Origin: Hyphomicrobium sp.
GTDB lineage: Bacteria; Pseudomonadota; Alphaproteobacteria; Rhizobiales; Hyphomicrobiaceae
Reading direction: 5' to 3'
Length of the DNA stretch: 64,000 nucleotides
NCBI GenBank assembly: GCA_022843145.1
Contig: JALHOF010000010.1
Coordinates: 62,001-126,000, forward strand
A program made the position numbers and the translations under genes. The notes under the pieces were generated by a model that was given only the letters and a program-made list of their open reading frames with translations, did not search any database and was not told where the DNA came from. Below, one piece after another: positions 19,443 to 30,588 of the stretch; the stretch's first letter is position 1; every line of letters begins with the position of its first letter.

Positions 19443-19646
19443 ATGGAATCGCCTTGCATCAAAATCTGCGTCATCGATCCGACATCGCGCTTGTGCGTGG
19501 GCTGTGCGAGGACTTTGGACGAAATCGCCACGTGGGGTTCGCTGACGGACGGCCAGCGCGCGCGGATCATGTCGGAACTTCCGGATCGGCACGTCGTTTT
19601 GGCGGCCGCCGCGCGCCCCGCCGTCACTGGCGCCATTGGGAGTTGA
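19443..19646 (+). CDS. DUF1289 small cysteine-motif protein
   Basis: A 67-residue protein starting MESPCIKICVIDPTSRLCVG, with the pattern CIKIC...CVGC typical of DUF1289, a short presumed metal-binding domain (about 50 residues). The following ARTLDEIATWGSLTDGQRARIM also fits the family. The start at 19443 removes a 18-codon leader with unlike composition. The stop TGA (19644-19646) lies just upstream of the retropepsin-like gene, suggesting an operon. Confidence 0.85.
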   Translation: MESPCIKICVIDPTSRLCVGCARTLDEIATWGSLTDGQRARIMSELPDRHVVLAAAARPAVTGAIGS

Positions 19647-19650
19647 GTTC

Positions 19651-20358
19651 ATGCTGGGCTGGCTCGTCGTAACACTCGTCGTGCTCGGTCTCCTGTTCGC
19701 CGTGTTGCAGGGCAACCTCAGCGCGCTCGGGCCGTCGGAAGCGATCGACGAGACCATGCAGATCGTCGCCGCGATGCTGTTTGGCGCGTATGCCCTCTAT
19801 CTGCTGTTCGGTCATCGTGGGCGGCTCGGCCAGACGGTGCGCTATCTCGCGATGTGGGCGATCCTGTTCCTGGCCTTCGTCGGCGCTTATGCCTACCGAA
19901 CCGAGATTACCGCCGTCGGCTACCGGGTGATGGGCGAGTTGGTGCCGCCCGGTCAGACCGTAGCCATTGAAACCACCGATGCCGGCGAGCGCGCAGTACG
20001 TGTCCGGCGCCGCCCGGATGGCCATTTCATGGCCCGCGTCGAGGTCAACGGATCGCCGGTCTCCATGCTTGTCGACACCGGCGCGTCCACCGTCGTCCTG
20101 AGGCCGGCCGATGCCGAGCGGGCCGGTATCGAGATAAAGAACCTGAACTTCAGCGTTCCCGTGCAGACCGCAAACGGGACCACGTTCGCCGCGCCCGTCC
20201 GGCTGCGCTCGATCACCATCGGCGGCATCGAGGTGCGCGATGTCGAGACCCTCGTCTCCAAGCCCGGCAACCTCAAGGAAAGCCTGCTTGGTATGACTTT
20301 CTTAAAGCGTCTCCGCTCTTATGAGTTTGCTGGAGAGTTTTTGACGCTGCGCAGCTAG
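19651..20358 (+). CDS. Retropepsin-like aspartic protease, TIGR02281 type (copy 1)
   Basis: A 235-residue protein. Three hydrophobic segments in the first 85 residues (MLGWLVVTLVVLGLLFAV; IVAAMLFGAYALYLLF; LAMWAILFLAFVGAY) anchor a C-terminal single-lobe aspartic protease domain. The catalytic motif is VSMLVDTGASTVVL (DTGA), with downstream TANGTTFAAPVRLRSITIGG and a flap/hydrophobic end ESLLGMTFLKRL. This is the clan AA, retropepsin-like family common in alphaproteobacteria. Substrates are unknown. A second copy follows after a short gap. ATG at 19651 was chosen over TTG at 19636. Confidence 0.85.
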   Translation: MLGWLVVTLVVLGLLFAVLQGNLSALGPSEAIDETMQIVAAMLFGAYALYLLFGHRGRLGQTVRYLAMWAILFLAFVGAYAYRTEITAVGYRVMGELVPPGQTVAIETTDAGERAVRVRRRPDGHFMARVEVNGSPVSMLVDTGASTVVLRPADAERAGIEIKNLNFSVPVQTANGTTFAAPVRLRSITIGGIEVRDVETLVSKPGNLKESLLGMTFLKRLRSYEFAGEFLTLRS

Positions 20359-20399
20359 CCTTGAATTGGCCGGCCGGCGTCGCGAGTTGGAACCGACGC

Positions 20400-20963
20400 A
20401 TGGGATTCACGTCAGGCACGCGCGGACTGCTCGGCGAGGCGATGAGTTGGGTCGCGGCTGCAGGAATGCTTGCGTTCGGTCTTGTCCACTATGACGAGAT
20501 CCGGACCGCCACCAGCGCCGCGCTCGGCATCCCCAGCAGCACCTCCGGACAGCACCAGGCCGATGGCGATTCGGCCCGCCGCGATCATTCGGGCGGAATG
20601 GTCGAACTCAGGGCCGAACGAAGCGGCCATTTCATCACCACCGCCGAGGTCAACGGCCGCGCGGTCGAAATCATGGTCGACACCGGCGCCACATTCGTCG
20701 CGCTGAGCTACGAGGATGCGGAACGCGCGGGCATCTATCTGACGTCGAAAGACTTTACCCACTCGGTCGGAACCGCGAACGGCCGCGCAAGCGTTGCACC
20801 CGTCTCGCTCAGCCGCGTGTCGATCGGCGACATCACGGTGCGCAACGTGCAAGCCCTGGTTTCAGAACCGGGGAAGCTGCAGACGTCGCTGCTCGGCATG
20901 TCGTTCCTGAAGCGCCTGTCGGGCTTCGAGATGCGGTCGGATACGCTCTACCTGAAAGACTGA
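20400..20963 (+). CDS. Retropepsin-like aspartic protease, TIGR02281 type (copy 2)
   Basis: A 187-residue paralogue of the preceding gene. One hydrophobic N-terminal segment (EAMSWVAAAGMLAFGLVHYD) is followed by the protease domain. The catalytic motif is IMVDTGATFVAL (DTGA), with matching downstream blocks TANGRASVAPVSLSRVSIGD and TSLLGMSFLKRL. It has lost two of the three N-terminal membrane segments of copy 1. The ATG at 20400 is preferred, and the frame is open to a TTG at 20361, three bases after copy 1 ends. Tandem duplication followed by divergence is the simplest reading. Confidence 0.83.
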   Translation: MGFTSGTRGLLGEAMSWVAAAGMLAFGLVHYDEIRTATSAALGIPSSTSGQHQADGDSARRDHSGGMVELRAERSGHFITTAEVNGRAVEIMVDTGATFVALSYEDAERAGIYLTSKDFTHSVGTANGRASVAPVSLSRVSIGDITVRNVQALVSEPGKLQTSLLGMSFLKRLSGFEMRSDTLYLKD

Positions 20964-21093: not shown

Positions 21094-22602
21094 ATGTTTC
21101 CCACACCGCGCGCAGATCTCGTTCCCAACACCGCCGACTTCGAGCGCTTGCCGCTGGTCAAGCCGACCGGCTTTCGCGAGTACGACGCGCGCTGGCTGTT
21201 CCCCGAAGAGATCAATCTGATGGGGCTCAACGCAGTGGGCCTCGGCATGGCAGCGCTGTTCGCCGAGCGCGGCGTCCCGAAGCGGATCGTCGTTGGCCAT
21301 GATTTCCGCTGGTATTCGGGCAGCGTGAAGCAGGCACTGATCAATGGACTGCTGGCAGGCGGATGCGAAGTCCACGATATCGGCCTCGCGCTCTCGCCGA
21401 TGGCCTACTACGCTCAGTTCGCGCTCGATGTCGAAGGCGTCGCGATGGTCACCGCCTCGCATAACGACAACGGCTGGACCGGCATCAAGATGGGCCTCGG
21501 CCGCCCCCTCACCTTCGGTCCCGACGAAATGACGCAACTCAAGAAGATCGTGCTCGAAGGCAAGTTTCAGCCGCGCGTCGGTGGCCGCTATATCTTCGTC
21601 CCCGACATGGCCGAGCGCTACAAGGCGTCGCTGCTCGAGGGTCGCGGCAAGCTGAAACGTAAACTTAAGGTCGTCTGCGCCTGCGGCAACGGCACCGCCG
21701 GCGCGTTCGCCCCCGAAGTGCTCGCCGCCGCCGGTTGCGAGGTGGTGCCGCTGCACTGCACGCTCGACCACAGCTTCCCGCATCACAACCCCAACCCCGA
21801 AGACATGGCGATGCTGCGGGCCGTCTCGGCGAAAGTCCTGGAAGTCAAAGCCGACGTCGGGCTCGCTTTCGACGGCGACGGCGACCGCTGCGGCGTCGTC
21901 GACAACGAGGGCCACGAGATCTTCGCCGACAAAGTCGGCGTCATGCTCGCGCGCGACATCTCCGGCCTCTTCCCCAACGCCAAGTTCGTCGTCGATGTCA
22001 AATCCACCGGTCTCTTTGCGACTGATCCGGTGCTGATCGAGCACGGCGCCACCACGACGTATTGGAAGACCGGTCACAGCTACATCAAGCGCTTCTCGCA
22101 CGAGACCAAGGCGCTCGTCGGCTTCGAGAAGTCGGGCCACTTCTTCTTCAACCCGCCGCTCGGCCGCGGTTACGACGACGGCCTCGTCGCCGCCCTCGCC
22201 GTCTGCGACATGCTCGAGCGCAACCCGTCGAAGACGATGGCAGACCTCAAGAACGCGCTTCCGAAGACCTGGCAGTCGCCGACCATGTCGCCCCACTGCG
22301 GCGACGAGGTGAAGTACGGCGTCGTCGACAAGATCATCGAGCACTACAAGACGCTGGCCGCCAAGAGCGCGACCATCGCCGGCCAGAAGATCCGCGAATT
22401 GATCACCGTCAACGGCGTCCGCGTCGTGCTGGCCGACGGCACCTGGGGCCTCGTCCGCGCGTCGTCGAACAAACCTGAACTCGTCGTCGTCGTCGAAAGC
22501 CCGACCTCGGAAGCCAACATGAAGGCGATCTTCGCCGACCTCGACGCGCAGATCTCGCGCCACCCCGAGGTCGGCGCGTACAATCAGAAAATCGCGTCGT
22601 AA
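21094..22602 (+). CDS. Phosphomannomutase/phosphoglucomutase
   Basis: A 502-residue alpha-D-phosphohexomutase that interconverts hexose-1- and hexose-6-phosphates for exopolysaccharide and LPS precursors. It carries all four family signatures. The phosphoserine loop is MVTASHNDNG, with S122. The metal loop is DGDGDR at residues 260-265. The sugar-binding loop is GFEKSGHFFF. The phosphate-binding end is WGLVRASSNKPEL. The family distinction (ManB/AlgC versus Pgm) cannot be made from these motifs. The ATG at 21094 follows GAGAGGC. It is the last conserved gene before the lower-GC insert. Confidence 0.92.
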   Translation: MFPTPRADLVPNTADFERLPLVKPTGFREYDARWLFPEEINLMGLNAVGLGMAALFAERGVPKRIVVGHDFRWYSGSVKQALINGLLAGGCEVHDIGLALSPMAYYAQFALDVEGVAMVTASHNDNGWTGIKMGLGRPLTFGPDEMTQLKKIVLEGKFQPRVGGRYIFVPDMAERYKASLLEGRGKLKRKLKVVCACGNGTAGAFAPEVLAAAGCEVVPLHCTLDHSFPHHNPNPEDMAMLRAVSAKVLEVKADVGLAFDGDGDRCGVVDNEGHEIFADKVGVMLARDISGLFPNAKFVVDVKSTGLFATDPVLIEHGATTTYWKTGHSYIKRFSHETKALVGFEKSGHFFFNPPLGRGYDDGLVAALAVCDMLERNPSKTMADLKNALPKTWQSPTMSPHCGDEVKYGVVDKIIEHYKTLAAKSATIAGQKIRELITVNGVRVVLADGTWGLVRASSNKPELVVVVESPTSEANMKAIFADLDAQISRHPEVGAYNQKIAS

Positions 22603-22609
22603 CGGCGGT

Positions 22610-22633
22610 CTGTATCTGCAGATAGCTTCAGAT
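22610..22633. repeat. Left imperfect direct repeat flanking the ParA-like cassette
   Basis: CTGTATCT (22610-22617), eight bases, then CTTCAGAT (22626-22633). The same two octamers with a nine-base spacer occur at 24351-24375, at the other edge of the low-GC insert. The left copy also contains a perfect 12-base palindrome TATCTGCAGATA (22613-22624). Possible insertion-site duplication; not proven. Confidence 0.5.
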
Positions 22634-22969
22634 CGGCCGGAACTTCTCAGCAACCTTGTTCTTGGCGTCATAGCGAACCAGCTCGACGAAGCGCTTGCTG
22701 ATTTTCTCAATGCCGGCCTTGCGGCTGGCAGCCTTGGCTCCACCTATGCCATAGGAGTTCGCTATAGCAGCTATGTCAGCGGCTGCGACATCAGCGTCAG
22801 TCGTCAAAGTCTTTAGAACAGCGTCGAACGCCGAACGATCCGTCTTCGCAGCGCGAAGACGAGCAACGTAGTCATCGACCTTAGCGTGATTGATCGACGC
22901 CTTGACTGCCTTAGCACGCACCATGTCATCGTCCTCGGTATAGAACCCGAGCATTCGAGCTAGTCCCAT
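22628..22969 (-). CDS. Small helical protein of unknown function, partner of the ParA-like gene
   Basis: A 113-residue, charged and probably all-helical protein starting MGLARMLGFYTEDDDMVRAK. It is rich in Ala, Lys, Asp and Arg, with no signal peptide and no membrane segment. The ATG at 22969 has GAGGGA seven bases upstream; an ATG at 22984 is in frame but has no site. It lies about 90 bases downstream of the ParA-like gene on the same strand, so a common transcript is likely. Base composition is less GC-rich than its neighbours. No known family was recognised. Its position suggests a partner or regulator of the ATPase. Confidence 0.65.
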   Translation of the reverse strand: MGLARMLGFYTEDDDMVRAKAVKASINHAKVDDYVARLRAAKTDRSAFDAVLKTLTTDADVAAADIAAIANSYGIGGAKAASRKAGIEKISKRFVELVRYDAKNKVAEKFRPI

Positions 22970-23060
22970 CGCGTTGTCCCTCATTTAGGCGGGGAGTACG
23001 CGACCACTAGGCTCCTCCAGGATAGTCATTGATATTGTTGCGATTCTGGCAAGACGCAAC

Positions 23061-24293
23061 CTATCGCCACTCATCAAGTTTGATTCGGGCACAGATTTGT
23101 TCGGCGAGTGGAGCGAACACCTGTCGAAACGCTTCTCCATCTTGCCCTGACAAAAGCCAAGCAAACTCTTCACCAGCGGCCCTAGCAACTGCTACACGAC
23201 GCGGGATTGTTCGCTCGAACCTGAAGTCAACACCTTCACGCCAGATCTCGCCAGAATCGCGCAGTGAATTAAATATATCTGATTCAATGCCCGAAAGCTG
23301 TTCGGTACGTGTCAACATCCCCACAATGCCCGCAAGATCGATACTAAGATTCATTTCCTCCTTTAGCACCTTTACCAAGGTCAGGAACTGCGCCACCGCT
23401 TCACCAGACAATTTGTCGAGCACCGTGGGCACAACAATGTGATGGCTCGCAACAAGTGCATTGATGCTGCTCATTGTAAGGCGTGGCGGCATGTCGAATA
23501 TGATTGCAGCGTACTTGCGCCGTACATCGGGGTCGAGAAATAGATGCGCGAGACGATATCGAGCATCAACCACATCATCTCCATCCGTAATCCATCTCAG
23601 CAGTAGCTCATTTTCCAACTGCGCCAGCGGGTAGCTTGCAGGAACGATCCAGCCTCGATTGAGTTTTGGAGCCAAATGCACTTCCTGTGCGACCACCGTC
23701 GCCAGCGATGCTCCTGGCTCAAAGAGCCTATTCACTCGAGATTCGGTCTCCTCCTTCCCGGCCGACAACAGCGCCATGTTCGAGAGGGAGCCCTGATAGT
23801 CTAAATCGACGAGCAGCACAGGAAGCTGTCGTTTCTCGCTGATGTAGGCCGCGAGATTAGCTGCTAACGTGGTCTTGCCGACGCCTCCCTTGAGATTTCC
23901 TACGGTGAGAACCCGTGCACCCTTCGGATCATGTGCCCACTCTCGATAGCGCACAAACGGCCGGTTTGACTTCAACTTCCAGAGCTCGCTTGCCCCCGTC
24001 GTTACTTGACGAAGATCCCTGTCTAGCTTTTCAATCTGCCTGGACCGCAAATCGTTACTGGCGATCGCCCCTTTAAGGGCTTGATCCTTCTCCTCCAATT
24101 GCATCTGGGAGCCGCGAACCTCTTCCTTCAAACGCCCAAGCGCTTCGGCTTGAGCCATGAGTTCACGGCGATCCTTGCGGTTGAAATAAAACGAGACTGC
24201 TGCGATCAATGGGCCGATCACGTATGAAATTATTGGCAGCGATTGCATAAATGCAGCGATGACCCACTCGACAACTGATTTGAGCCAATCCAC
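23061..24293 (-). CDS. Membrane-anchored ParA/MinD-family (SIMIBI) ATPase with coiled coil
   Basis: A protein of about 410 residues. It has an N-terminal hydrophobic segment (VVEWVIAAFMQSLPIISYVI, extended by GPLIAAVSFYF) and a basic/acidic helical stretch with heptad-like spacing (about residues 45-100). A ParA-type ATPase domain follows. The deviant Walker A is NLKGGVGKTTLAANLAAY (residues about 133-150), with VLLVDLDYQGSLSNM as Walker A', and AIIFDMPPRLTMSS as the Walker B region. No DNA-binding N-terminal helix-turn-helix and no ParB gene are present. GTG at 24293 has GAGAGG upstream; a TTG at 24311 is the alternative. Lower GC and imperfect flanking repeats suggest acquisition. The role is unknown; it resembles positioning or signalling ATPases more than a plasmid partition protein. 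Confidence 0.8.
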   Translation of the reverse strand: MDWLKSVVEWVIAAFMQSLPIISYVIGPLIAAVSFYFNRKDRRELMAQAEALGRLKEEVRGSQMQLEEKDQALKGAIASNDLRSRQIEKLDRDLRQVTTGASELWKLKSNRPFVRYREWAHDPKGARVLTVGNLKGGVGKTTLAANLAAYISEKRQLPVLLVDLDYQGSLSNMALLSAGKEETESRVNRLFEPGASLATVVAQEVHLAPKLNRGWIVPASYPLAQLENELLLRWITDGDDVVDARYRLAHLFLDPDVRRKYAAIIFDMPPRLTMSSINALVASHHIVVPTVLDKLSGEAVAQFLTLVKVLKEEMNLSIDLAGIVGMLTRTEQLSGIESDIFNSLRDSGEIWREGVDFRFERTIPRRVAVARAAGEEFAWLLSGQDGEAFRQVFAPLAEQICARIKLDEWR

Positions 24294-24350
24294 GAAGCGC
24301 CTCTCGATCAATCATTGTGCGTCACAGAGTACATGCTTATTCCGCAGGCG

Positions 24351-24375
24351 CTGTATCTAGCGTGCAACTTCAGAT
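24351..24375. repeat. Right imperfect direct repeat flanking the ParA-like cassette
   Basis: CTGTATCT (24351-24358), nine bases, then CTTCAGAT (24368-24375), in the same orientation as the copy at 22610-22633. It lies in the gap between the ParA-like gene and the metallophosphoesterase gene. Confidence 0.5.
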
Positions 24376-24382
24376 TGACCTC

Positions 24383-25327
24383 TCAACAGCACGCTGCCGG
24401 AGCGTCCGCCTCGGCGGCGGTGAGCGGCACGGGCCACGCGGGCCACGCCGCCGATAGTCCCGGCCGCCGTTCAGACGCCAGCCACCGTAACGTGCCGGGG
24501 GTGAGTGCCGCGCCCTGCACCGTGCGCTCGTGCGCCTCGAGCACGTCGCAGCTCGGCCATACGCCGCTTTCGAGCGCCGCGCGGTACTCATCGGGATAGC
24601 CGCCGCGCGCCATCGCCGCCATCGCTGCGCGGTGGTCGTAGTCGAAGGCATGGTGCGTGACTTCGATCGCGCCACGAACCGGCGTCAAGACGCTGTACCA
24701 GCCGCGCGCAGTGCCATCGTTGGCCGGCATCCCCGCGACACCCGCGTTGTGCCAGAGCCGCCCATCGATGACCTGCGTGAACGGCATGCCGCAGTGGCCG
24801 CCGATGATGCCGTGACAGCCATCCGCCAAGCCGAGTGACAGTTGCCGCCGCTTCTCGTCGAGCGGCGTCGTCGCGAACACGAACTGGTTGATGACGTCCG
24901 CACCGCCATGAATGATCCGCAGCCGGCGGCCGCCAATCTCGATATCGAGCCGCCTTGGTAAGGCGGCGAGCCAACGGCGGTCGCTCGCCCCAACTTCGCG
25001 ATCCACGCACTGAAACCACGCCGACGACAGCCGGTCGCAAGCGCCACCCTCCGGAAAGCCGCAACCGCAATCCGGCGCGCCCGTCGCAAGCTGCTCGTCG
25101 CAATTGCCCATGACGACATGAATGCCTGCATCCCTCACCCGTGCGATGGTCGCCACCGGATCGCCGCAGTAGGCCACGAGATCGCCCGTGCAGACGATCC
25201 GCGACGGCGGGATCCCGCGCCCAACCGCAACCGACAGCACCGCTTCGGTGGCCTGGAGGTTGCCATATGGCCCGCCGAAAACGAGCAGCGGACCATCGAT
25301 CCCGATCACCGCGTTGTTCCCCGTCAT
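24383..25327 (-). CDS. Metallophosphoesterase (calcineurin-like)
   Basis: A 314-residue protein of the calcineurin-like phosphoesterase superfamily. Motifs in order: LLVFGGPYGNLQATEAVL (a variant of the DxH start, where the usual DxHGN reads GPYGN), RIVCTGDLVAYCGDP (GDxxxxGxxP), HVVMGNCDEQLA (GNCD/E), RIIHGGAD (GH-like), and IIGGHCGMPF (GHT-like). Replacement of the first Asp and His by Gly and Tyr is notable, because these normally ligand the first metal. The start of the domain may therefore be degenerate. The C-terminal part has HHAFDYDHRAAM, as in cytoplasmic homologues. It is likely soluble; the substrate is unknown. Confidence 0.82.
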   Translation of the reverse strand: MTGNNAVIGIDGPLLVFGGPYGNLQATEAVLSVAVGRGIPPSRIVCTGDLVAYCGDPVATIARVRDAGIHVVMGNCDEQLATGAPDCGCGFPEGGACDRLSSAWFQCVDREVGASDRRWLAALPRRLDIEIGGRRLRIIHGGADVINQFVFATTPLDEKRRQLSLGLADGCHGIIGGHCGMPFTQVIDGRLWHNAGVAGMPANDGTARGWYSVLTPVRGAIEVTHHAFDYDHRAAMAAMARGGYPDEYRAALESGVWPSCDVLEAHERTVQGAALTPGTLRWLASERRPGLSAAWPAWPVPLTAAEADAPAACC

Positions 25328-26968: not shown

Positions 26969-28207
26969 TCAGAAGTTGATCTTGCCGCCAGCCATGAGCG
27001 ACGAGAAGTTCTCTTCGGTGTTGATACCGGGAACGTCGGCGTCGAAGTTGTTGTAACGAACGTAGAGGTCCATCGCGGCAGCTTCAATGTTCTGGTTGAA
27101 GCCGATGCCCCACATGGTCATGTCGATGCCCGCGGCGCCAGCCGGGTTGTTGGCACCAATCTCCCAAGACTGATACTCGCCGAAGAGCGTCGTCTTGCCG
27201 AGGGGGAACCACTTCCGCTCGATACCAGCCTGCAGGTAGAACTGCGAAGACTTGTCGTCACCGATGAAAACGTTGTCATCGGAACGCTCGCCGTAGGCGG
27301 CATGAACGTAGAGACCCGTAGCGACGTGCATCACAGCGCCCGAGATGCCCCACTGCGAGCAATCCGTGGCGCCAGCGATGGCGACGCAGTTGTATTCGTT
27401 GGTGGTGGCGTCCGTGACCTGCAGATAGCCGGCACCGAGAGCGACCTTGATACCGTTGAATTCGCCTGCATAGCGCAGAGCGACGTCCCACAGATCATCT
27501 TCGCCAAAGGCCGCCGAGAACGTGAAGCCCTGCAGAGCGATCGACTCGAACTTCACGACGTTGTGACGCTCGCCTTCGCCGATCTGGCCAGCCGTGTTGC
27601 CGACGCCGTTGGCGTTGGTGCCGCCCATGAAGCCGCGCAGACGGATGCCGGTACCCTGAACGACGAAGTTGCCGACCTGGGCCGACATGTTCTGCGTCGC
27701 GAAGTGGCCGGCGTTGGCGAGGTTGATCTCCATGATCGCGTCGGTCGCCGACGAGGTCTGACCAACCCAAACCTTACCGATGTCCTTGTTCGACAGCCAC
27801 CAGGCCGAGTGACGAACACCGAGACCAGCGGCCTGGCCATCGTCGTTCGTGGCATCGTTGCCGTCATGACGTGCCGACGCGACGCCGATCTCCATCAAGT
27901 AACCAGCCGACCAGCGATCGTTGATCTTCGCGTCGCCGACGAAGCGGAAGCGCGACTGAGCGACGAGGTTGGTTCCGACGTACGTGTTGCGCTCGACGCC
28001 GTCATCCCAGAACAGGACCGACTCGTTGACCCAACCTGACACGGTGAGCTTGACCTTGCGATTGCCCTTACGGGCGGCAGTGGCTTCGAGTTCGGCGATG
28101 CGCTCTTCGAGGTCGGCGCAGCAATTGCCACCCAGATCCGCAGCCATGGCGCTCGTCGATGCGACGGTCGCGGCGGCTACGAGGGCGATCAGACTGATCT
28201 TTTTCAT
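26969..28207 (-). CDS. Porin (rhizobial Omp2-type), copy 1
   Basis: A 412-residue trimeric general-diffusion porin candidate. Signal peptide MKKISLIALVAAATVASTSA-MAA precedes DLGGNCCADLEERIAELEAT, a short cysteine-pair plus coiled coil typical of Hyphomicrobiales porins. The barrel follows, starting KLTVSGWVNESVLFWDDG, with strands such as RFRFVGDAKIND and KVWVGQTSSATDAI. The C-terminus ends in a beta strand with LMAGGKINF, an aromatic last residue as needed for Bam assembly. The ATG at 28207 follows GGGGGA. It is a paralogue of the next porin gene, with matching N-terminal and C-terminal blocks. Confidence 0.93.
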   Translation of the reverse strand: MKKISLIALVAAATVASTSAMAADLGGNCCADLEERIAELEATAARKGNRKVKLTVSGWVNESVLFWDDGVERNTYVGTNLVAQSRFRFVGDAKINDRWSAGYLMEIGVASARHDGNDATNDDGQAAGLGVRHSAWWLSNKDIGKVWVGQTSSATDAIMEINLANAGHFATQNMSAQVGNFVVQGTGIRLRGFMGGTNANGVGNTAGQIGEGERHNVVKFESIALQGFTFSAAFGEDDLWDVALRYAGEFNGIKVALGAGYLQVTDATTNEYNCVAIAGATDCSQWGISGAVMHVATGLYVHAAYGERSDDNVFIGDDKSSQFYLQAGIERKWFPLGKTTLFGEYQSWEIGANNPAGAAGIDMTMWGIGFNQNIEAAAMDLYVRYNNFDADVPGINTEENFSSLMAGGKINF

Positions 28208-28878
28208 TGGTCCCCCAATAAGGTTTTGAAACGCCAGACGTGGCTTCTCATGCATCCAGAAATCACGCTCGGCGTGGCTTCTATGGCGCCGCTTGAGTCA
28301 GCGTGATGGGCGATCGCGCGAAGGCCCACCGCCTGACGAGGCGGAGCTACGCAAAAAGGACGCTACAGTCGGCTACTGGGAGGCAACGCGGAGGCGGAGG
28401 GCACGAACCAGCCGCACATGCGGCGATGGAGCGCTTTGTTCGATGGTCAACCGGTGGAACACCGCGCTGAAACACCGAAAATCCGACTCGAACATGGTCC
28501 AACTGTTAGTCCACACAGGTGACTCGGGCAAATACCGATGCAGCCCAAGCCGTTGAAGCAGACAGCTATGTGGCCAAGCTGCAACGTTTCACCCCAGGTG
28601 TGGTGCATAAGCTGGGGATGACTGGGATGGGGCTCCCGACGGCTATTTGAACACCATTTGATTGAAATGCAGGCACTTGGCAGGTTCGATTGTGAGGAGG
28701 CGCGACCAGCCAGGGAAGGATCGCTACGCCCACCGCAGAGTTGCACCAGCACACGCCGGTCGCAGCCCCAGCAAGCGGCTTGACGCGAAAGTTGCCATGC
28801 CTCGAAACGAGAAGAGCCGCCCAACTCGTGAGAGTTGGGCGGCTCATCGATTGCAGTCCGATCAGGTCGAGGCGCGGA
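28208..28878. other. Porin-porin intergenic region, no gene seen
   Basis: About 670 bases between the two minus-strand porins. It holds the terminator of porin 2 (28814-28845) and presumably the promoter of porin 1. Several frames of 90-125 codons cross it, but none has protein-like composition, a ribosome-binding site or a recognisable motif. A small RNA cannot be excluded. Confidence 0.6.
28814..28845 (-). terminator. Strong hairpin terminator after porin 2
   Basis: A perfect 14-bp stem GAGCCGCCCAACTC/GAGTTGGGCGGCTC (28814-28827 with 28832-28845) and a GTGA loop. The downstream minus-strand tract is TTCTCGTTTC, only partly U-rich. It lies about 35 bases past the stop codon of the porin at 28879-30156. 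Confidence 0.8.
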
Positions 28879-30156
28879 TCAGAAGTTGATCTTGCCGCCT
28901 GCCATGATGGTCTGGATGTCGCCGTGGCTGAGCGTTACAGCACCAACCGTACGATCTGCATCGTAGTGGTTGTAGCGGATGTACAGATCCATCGCGGCTG
29001 CGTCGATAGATTGGTTGAAACCGACGCCGTACATCGTCATCTCGGTGCTTACGTTGTCGGCGTTCAGGCCGTTTCCACCAACATCCCACTGCTGATACTC
29101 ACCGAACAGCGTCGACTTGCCGATGCCGAAGAAGTTCTGCTCAATACCGGCCTGGACGTAGAGCTGCGTGGAGCTGTCATCCCCGCCCGCGCCGACGTTG
29201 TCGTCAGTGCGAATGCCGTAGGCAGCATGAACGTAGAGGCCAGTCGGGACGTGCATGATGGCGCCCGACATACCGATCTGGCTGCAATCTACGTCGCCCG
29301 GAACGGCGGACTCACGACAATTGTACTCGTTGAGCGTTGCGGTGTTCCCATCTGTCCACTGCAAGTAACCTACACCGGCAGCGATCTTGAACCCCGAGAA
29401 CTCACCGGCATATCGGATCGCGACGTCCCAGAGGTCGTCTTCACCGAATGCGGCCGAGACCGCGAAGCCTGCGAAAGTGGGGCTCTCGTACTTGACGACG
29501 TTGTGACGCTCGCCTTCGCCGATCTGACCGCCCGTGTTGGCGGTCGAGACGCCGTTGGCACCACCCGCGAAGGAACGAATCGTGCGGGCCGGGCCAGCGC
29601 CAGTGAAGGCGAAGCTACCGGCAGCCGCAGCAGAATTCTGCGTCGCGAAGTGCAGCGTGTTGGCGAGGTTGATTTCAGTAATCGCGTCGGTGGCCGACGA
29701 CGTCTGACCGACCCACAACTTGCCGAGCTGCTTGGACTGCAACCACCAGGCACTGTGGCGAATGCCGAGCGCAGCGGCGGTCACGTCGTCGCCAGTGGCG
29801 TCCTGACCGTCGAGGCGAGCGGCGCCAACGCCGATCTCCAAGAGGTAACCAGCCGACCAGTCGGCGTTGATCTTGGCGTTGCCGACGAAGCGGAAGCGCG
29901 TCTGAGCAACAAGGTTCGTGCCGATATAAGCGTTTGACTCGACGCCGTCATCCCAGAACAGGACGGCTTCGTTGACCCAGCCCGAAACCGTGAGCGAGAC
30001 CTTGCGGTTGCCCTTGCGGGCAGTGGTGGCCTCGAGCTCAGCGACGCGCTCTTCGAGGTCGGCGCAGCAGTCGCCACCAAGATCGGCGGCCTGTGCAGAT
30101 GAGATGCCACCCACGATAGCCGCGGCGGCGATCAACGCTACAAAACTCGACTTCAT
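28879..30156 (-). CDS. Porin (rhizobial Omp2-type), copy 2
   Basis: A 425-residue porin. Signal peptide MKSSFVALIAAAAIVGGISS-AQAA precedes DLGGDCCADLEERVAELEAT, nearly the same N-terminal block as copy 1. It has KVSLTVSGWVNEAVLFWDDG, RFRFVGNAKINAD and IGEGERHNVVKYES, also present in copy 1 with small changes. Central strands and loops differ more, as expected for surface-exposed porin loops. The C-terminus is IQTIMAGGKINF. The ATG at 30156 follows GGGGGA. The pair looks like a tandem duplication. Confidence 0.93.
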   Translation of the reverse strand: MKSSFVALIAAAAIVGGISSAQAADLGGDCCADLEERVAELEATTARKGNRKVSLTVSGWVNEAVLFWDDGVESNAYIGTNLVAQTRFRFVGNAKINADWSAGYLLEIGVGAARLDGQDATGDDVTAAALGIRHSAWWLQSKQLGKLWVGQTSSATDAITEINLANTLHFATQNSAAAAGSFAFTGAGPARTIRSFAGGANGVSTANTGGQIGEGERHNVVKYESPTFAGFAVSAAFGEDDLWDVAIRYAGEFSGFKIAAGVGYLQWTDGNTATLNEYNCRESAVPGDVDCSQIGMSGAIMHVPTGLYVHAAYGIRTDDNVGAGGDDSSTQLYVQAGIEQNFFGIGKSTLFGEYQQWDVGGNGLNADNVSTEMTMYGVGFNQSIDAAAMDLYIRYNHYDADRTVGAVTLSHGDIQTIMAGGKINF

Positions 30157-30588
30157 ATGTCCCCCGATCATGACTTACTCTCCGTTGGACTTACTCAAGG
30201 CAACCGACGCCACGAGAAATTCAAAGTCTGGCTCAGCACCACGATTAAGCTCTGACGCTCAGCTGCCTCGGCCATCGGATACACCTGTATCCAGACCTGA
30301 GTTGCCTTCGCTGGATCAAGAACTACCCCACCCCTGCGCGGCGCGTAAACCCGAAAAGCTATTGCGACGGCATTCCCAGTTCCCAAGTGGCGTATTTGCA
30401 ACGACATTGAGTCGCGACTCACACCTTGTGCTCGGGATTGGCGCAAGATTCCAATCTGGCCAAGGAGGCTGTCAACTCCTGAGATTCTGCCGCTGGCGCA
30501 CCTTGGACGACGGCGGATGGGTGCTCTAGACTGGCAACAAAAGCGTATGAGTTGCAGCGACTTGAACATCAATCAGAGAGCGCCGTCC
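30157..30588. other. Intergenic region between divergent porin 2 and FAD monooxygenase genes, no gene seen
   Basis: About 430 bases that must contain the divergent promoters of porin 2 (minus) and the monooxygenase (plus). No protein-like ORF, RNA fold or repeat was recognised. Confidence 0.6.

Follow-up and report, generated by a model that had tools for sequence, protein, structure and literature searches.

The window analysed here is a stretch of 64,000 nucleotides from a Hyphomicrobium genome (contig JALHOF010000010.1, positions 62,001 to 126,000 of the forward strand). On its minus strand, at 22628-24311, lies a two-gene cassette with both open reading frames present, a ParA-family ATPase gene followed by the gene of a small partner protein that we call S. 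The cassette occupies the 1780 bp that separate two convergent genes, one for a phosphoglucomutase/phosphomannomutase and one for a metallophosphoesterase. An earlier, sequence-only reading of this DNA had the cassette interrupting housekeeping genes; instead it sits in the intergenic gap and no gene is broken. The features are as follows, with the edges of the insertion given relative to genome G002, in which the same site is empty.

21094-22602, plus strand: phosphoglucomutase/phosphomannomutase gene, ending at 22602, convergent with the cassette
22603-22627, no strand: short spacer separating S from the convergent phosphoglucomutase/phosphomannomutase gene; the insertion's right edge
22628-22984, minus strand: partner protein S; the first ATG would give 118 aa, and the likely start, M26 (22909), gives about 93 aa
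22643-22888, minus strand: conserved helical C-module of S, about residues 33-114 (alignment and model)
23061-24311, minus strand: ParA-family ATPase, 416 aa, with N-terminal membrane anchor (ORF, Pfam, hydropathy and AlphaFold)
23868-23891, minus strand: deviant Walker A motif KGGVGKTT, residues 141-148, with signature lysine K141 and P-loop lysine K146
23970-24170, minus strand: predicted continuous helical stalk, residues 48-114 (AlphaFold, moderate pLDDT of about 45-79)
24183-24239, minus strand: predicted transmembrane segment, residues 25-43 (hydropathy and AlphaFold)
24312-24382, no strand: gap between the metallophosphoesterase stop and the ATPase start, which presumably holds the promoter; the insertion's left edge
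24383-25327, minus strand: metallophosphoesterase gene, its stop-side end at 24383 as given

The GC content of the cassette is 0.534 compared with 0.648 for the whole window, in agreement with the sequence-only impression that it is less GC-rich than its neighbours, and a value this low is found in only 0.3% of 1684-bp intervals, exactly those that overlap the cassette. Two further gene pairs lie in the window, namely two adjacent paralogous membrane-anchored retropepsin-like aspartyl proteases (19636-20963) and, on the minus strand, adjacent paralogous outer-membrane porin genes (26969-30171).

The ATPase starts with a TTG at 24311 and matches Pfam AAA_31 (E=2.9e-27). The two Walker lysines are kept in 34/34 family ATPases, as are the aspartates of Walker A' and Walker B, and the AlphaFold model, with a pLDDT of about 90 in its core, has a ParA fold that is closest to Soj/ParA (E about 1e-16). 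In motif, aspartates, and fold the protein is thus a member of the ParA/MinD (deviant Walker A) superfamily. The model further predicts a helix of residues 2-23 ahead of the transmembrane segment and a single helix of residues 48-114, a stalk of ~67 residues that would join the membrane anchor to the ATPase head. The anchor is the only hydrophobic segment of the ATPase (residues 25-43, mean Kyte-Doolittle value 1.86), and its flanking net charges, -1 N-terminally and +2 C-terminally, predict a cytoplasmic ATPase domain. These results bear out the earlier description of a ParA-like ATPase with KGGVGKTT and one N-terminal hydrophobic segment. Across the family, an N-terminal hydrophobic segment with a positive C-terminal flank is present in 27/35 ATPases at a strict hydropathy cut-off, and most of those that fail lie just below the cut-off or are cut by contig ends. 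The family also differs from 29 comparator ATPases in its motifs: DLD[YF]QG is found in 33/34 members, as against DLDPQG in 18/29 comparators, and DxPPR occurs in 34/34 members but is missing from the residues listed for the comparators. The canonical DART arginine is part of the Soj DNA-binding surface; its position holds R or K in 21/29 comparators and mostly S, Q, or A in the family. Family ATPases score at least 174 bits with a subfamily profile, whereas the nearest ParA relatives on viral contigs score at most 127 bits. With the NCBIfam RepA and SopA models the window ATPase matches below threshold, and it reaches no curated NCBIfam equivalog cut-off. Judged by these sequence characters, the ATPases are a distinct ParA subfamily with a conserved predicted N-terminal anchor.

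The partner protein was previously read as a 113-residue helical protein of no recognized family. The absence of a family stands, in that S has no Pfam, NCBIfam, or PADLOC match, no significant PHROGs match, and, for the window copy, no match in IMG/VR. The start is to be revised, as M26 is probably the true one given that homologs from genomes G003 and G012 align with it and that a GAGGA lies a few bases upstream. S proteins are modular, with a conserved C-module of ~80 residues; many members have, ahead of it, a Lys/Pro-rich segment together with a helical N-module in zero to two copies. Window S is essentially the C-module alone. The linker ahead of the C-module is basic in many S proteins, and the 28-residue linker has a net charge of zero or below in about 10 of 29. 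The C-terminal tails vary by clade, some ending in W, Y, or F and others in GRxAA or xAI. The model of window S is of low confidence (pLDDT 69), with a predicted topology of helix 68-77, loop, and helix 88-114; it has no fold match, and against solved chains only weak matches to designed or coiled helical proteins were obtained. The likeness of this modeled helix-loop-helix to SAP/Rho-N-like modules is a lead only, and the SAP, Rho-N, and HeH families are absent among the 25 Pfam matches listed for 29 S proteins. Known domains were rejected for S, the matches being scattered over single members, for example GemA in 1/29 S proteins.

The ATPase and S form one co-inherited unit. Separate searches of 100 related genomes with the two proteins led to the same loci, and a scan of 297 genomes of the order, with profiles based on 23 ATPase and 29 S sequences, detected the ATPase (profile E at most 1e-50) in 17 genomes and S in 16 of the same genomes; in the single genome with an ATPase and no S, the ATPase is truncated by the end of a contig. 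At 35/35 loci with readable downstream DNA, the window included, S follows directly after the ATPase in the same orientation. The earlier proposal that S is the partner of the ATPase, which was open to refutation at each of these loci, is upheld. Since about ten of the S proteins in the profile had initially been picked by their position beside an ATPase, a fair test of pairing is confined to the nine loci retrieved once the profile existed, and at 9/9 of them S is found beside the ATPase, two with weak S scores (8.6e-5 and 0.0016). The gap between the two genes has a median of 3 bp and is at most 60 bp in 22/28 loci, and at least five loci with larger gaps have between them a gene of ~62-71 aa that resembles the N-terminal module of longer S proteins. 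Furthermore, ATPase and S distances are correlated (r=0.38, above all 5000 permutations), and 28/34 S proteins share their C-terminal tail class, as defined after looking at the data, with the S of the nearest ATPase.

In a sample of the class, 3 non-self genomes of 340 carry the cassette, and in a sample of the phylum 2 non-self genomes of 347 do so, both of them already among the known carriers. The neighboring genes are different housekeeping genes almost every time (among them thrS, recG and mfd, clpA, dnaX-recR, ruvA, lysyl-tRNA synthetase, mutY, and uvrB, several recognized by eye and several by Pfam), and no recurrent neighbor gene family surrounds the cassettes. Because the pair recurs side by side at unrelated sites in about 6% of the order, it looks like a real accessory module, as the sequence-only reading had it. 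Three states of the site of the window cassette are found within the genus. In G002 (L124, G002:C209) it is empty, with 58 bp between two stop codons; in G003 (L065 8142-8438, G003:C1) it holds S alone, 48% identical and under constraint (pN 0.30, pS 0.75); and in the window it holds both genes. Four S-only loci are known (two in G003 and one each in G067 and G042) and no ATPase-only locus, and in G027 (L050 6983-8230) the ATPase has one premature TAG and the S gene is intact. Small as these numbers are, the one-sided loss fits an S that is antidote-like or independently useful, and given the S-only loci S may also act alone. The roaming of the cassette between housekeeping genes, together with its one-sided decay, suggests a conditional benefit.

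With regard to how the cassette moves, the 3' end of the upstream clpA is duplicated after the S stop in G027 (L050, 24/25 bp), and in G033 (L052) the 3' end of the upstream gene, which ends in ERRRPPRG, is repeated after S (26/26 bp). These duplications, seen in 2/32 loci and starting 5-21 bp beyond the S stop codon, are the pattern that site-specific integration at gene ends leaves. No integrase lies within the cassette. Direct repeats around the window copy were rejected, none being above shuffles and the ATCTGAAG pair being at chance level (p=0.40), as was a shared cis element such as a parS-like site or element ends, no k-mer of 9-11 being present in more than 4 of 32 flanks. Within a single genus, cassettes of different clades occupy different sites in different species, and G012 has two cassettes that belong to different clades.

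A stand-alone S C-module of 89 aa is encoded in a prophage of G042 (L134 6771-7040, G042:C7), where it adjoins P27 small and large terminase, portal, and prohead protease genes of an HK97-type prophage. An identical C-module is found in the IMG/VR contig L232, and G042 also carries a full cassette elsewhere.

Among described systems, the ATPase shares its fold and catalytic motifs with the ParA/Soj of chromosomal ParABS but differs from it in its N-terminal anchor and stalk, in having DLD[YF]QG and DxPPR where ParA has DLDPQG and DxPPS, and in lacking the DART arginine. Neither an adjacent ParB nor parS was found, and the downstream gene encodes S, which is unrelated to ParB. The ATPase scores 66.4 bits against a cut-off of 180 with NF041546 and 54.4 against 348 with TIGR03453, and a canonical ParA-ParB pair is encoded elsewhere in the same genome. 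A canonical partition system was rejected on these low equivalog scores, the separate ParAB pair, and the absence of S from plasmids; the sequence-only reading was accordingly right that the cassette is without ParB. The cassette would work like MinD-MinE in that both pair a ParA-superfamily ATPase of the membrane surface with a small protein. However, MinD binds by a reversible C-terminal amphipathic helix and the cassette ATPase by a predicted N-terminal hydrophobic helix, the ATPase scores 22.7 bits against the cut-off of 212.9 with the MinD equivalog TIGR01968, and no minC or minE was recognized beside cassettes. The ATPase also falls short of the cut-offs of the bacterial tyrosine kinase (Wzc/CpsD) models (eps_fam 12.1 against 108 bits, Wzc 12.7 against 1068 bits). 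The second refutation proposed in the sequence-only reading, that the ATPase belongs to a known chromosome-partition or polysaccharide system, failed on the separate ParA-ParB pair and the unreached equivalog cut-offs. The best match of the ATPase in a family library is phrog_164, a ParA-like partition protein (E=4.5e-35, residues 121-411), but the match is limited to the ATPase head, and none of the 80 viral ParA loci that we fetched carries S or attains the scores of the subfamily. McdA-McdB shares with the cassette the two-gene logic of a ParA-type ATPase and a small adaptor that is unrelated to ParB and works without a centromere. McdA is a soluble protein that works on the nucleoid, whereas the cassette ATPase is predicted to be membrane-anchored; S is predicted to be helical. 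McdB and McdB-like proteins end in an aromatic residue (PMC11321042), which is shared by only some S clades and so is not an invariant of the family. The BMC domain PF00936 is encoded in 0/12 carrier genomes, with positive controls, and identity with McdAB was ruled out on this ground.

Four other explanations of the cassette have to be weighed. It could be a captured partition system of a plasmid or integrative element, composed of a ParA and a centromere-binding protein that is not ParB. A ParA fold beside a small partner with a basic segment recalls ParA-ParG or delta-omega, and the sub-threshold RepA and SopA matches point the same way. We nevertheless hold this to be very improbable, as S is unmatched in 72,556 plasmid records, no plasmid match covers 80% of the ATPase, the anchor is permanent, the DART arginine is lost, and there is no conserved upstream repeat or site. 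Fainter still in our estimation is that the cassette positions a known large cargo, such as a microcompartment, chemosensory array, flagellum, or conjugation machine, and is a disguised McdAB, ParC/PpfA, FlhG, or VirC1. The ATPase superfamily is the same and several S proteins end, like McdB, in tryptophan, tyrosine, or phenylalanine, yet carriers are without BMC genes, no cargo genes lie by the cassette, and the remaining tails are not aromatic.

A third possibility is an anti-phage or conflict module, in which the membrane ATPase would sense or execute and S would control it; a defense role had also been raised by the sequence-only reading. Patchy carriage, a GC content below that of the flanks (30/32 loci), and variable sites are traits that defense genes have too. 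The empty, S-only, and full states of one site, the different clades at different sites of one genus and within G012, and the lone C-module encoded by a carrier's prophage, a possible decoy, also speak for such a module. Against it, no PADLOC family matches the ATPase or S, the neighbors are housekeeping genes with no recurrent defense, restriction, or integrase gene among them, and the pair is without a nuclease, NADase, protease, or pore domain. Single PADLOC matches among the neighbors, for example to Clp and helicases, look like housekeeping cross-matches, and a defense island was rejected. We regard this reading as unlikely. The one-sided loss, the constraint on S at the syntenic site of G003, and the intact S beside the interrupted ATPase of G027 speak for an addiction-like pair, with S as antidote to a membrane-bound ATPase that does harm when unregulated. 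We consider such a pair distinctly improbable, since four loci against none is weak, the ATPase gene comes first and the S gene second, no known toxin fold is present, and constraint on S fits an independent role too.

What is established is that the cassette represents a real, recurrent, unnamed two-gene family of the ParA/MinD-plus-partner kind; the pair is undescribed in the profile libraries and open-licence literature searched, which is a weak negative. As to its function, the reading that we favor, and to which we give an even chance, is that of an accessory, horizontally spreading operon that pairs a membrane-tethered ParA/MinD-type ATPase with S as its dedicated adaptor or regulator. 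ParA/MinD ATPases dimerize on ATP, and their partners stimulate them, usually by means of an N-terminus that is disordered and positively charged (PMC10241942). In the cassette, ATPase heads would be held on the helical stalk at the cytoplasmic face of the inner membrane and would dimerize on ATP; S would dock on the ATP dimer, probably via its basic flexible segment, and stimulate hydrolysis; the C-module and the clade-specific C-terminal tail of S would hold a cargo or target; and ATP turnover would position, cluster, or release that target at the membrane. In its working the system would then resemble MinDE or McdAB, except that a permanent membrane anchor would substitute for binding to nucleoid DNA. 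The suggested role in positioning rests on family membership. Against the operon reading, the basic segment is not universal, S also occurs at loci of its own, the model of S is of low confidence and matches no fold, and no recurring neighbor names a cargo. Many ParA/MinD ATPases are orphans without a known partner (PMC10241942), and the family described here comes with a recognizable obligate partner. This partner and the fixed, stalked membrane anchor make both the membrane-versus-nucleoid question and the partner rule directly testable.

A more far-reaching version, which we think rather improbable, is that they form a new class of mobile cassette in which a stalked, permanently anchored ParA and a fast-evolving modular partner recognize foreign or variable cargo. 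If so, an ATP-driven membrane system would recognize, for example, incoming DNA or phage structures, and phages would carry stand-alone S C-modules as decoys or for their own use.

Finally, genus g57 encodes a second ParA, which is soluble and is accompanied by a small protein of its own with a basic C-terminus (L131 8173-9644, L132 8512-9952). The small protein beside this second ParA (G128/G158) was rejected as a relative of S (hhalign probability 0.3). The second pair lies beside the cassette and recR, and the two species have the cassette in opposite orientations.
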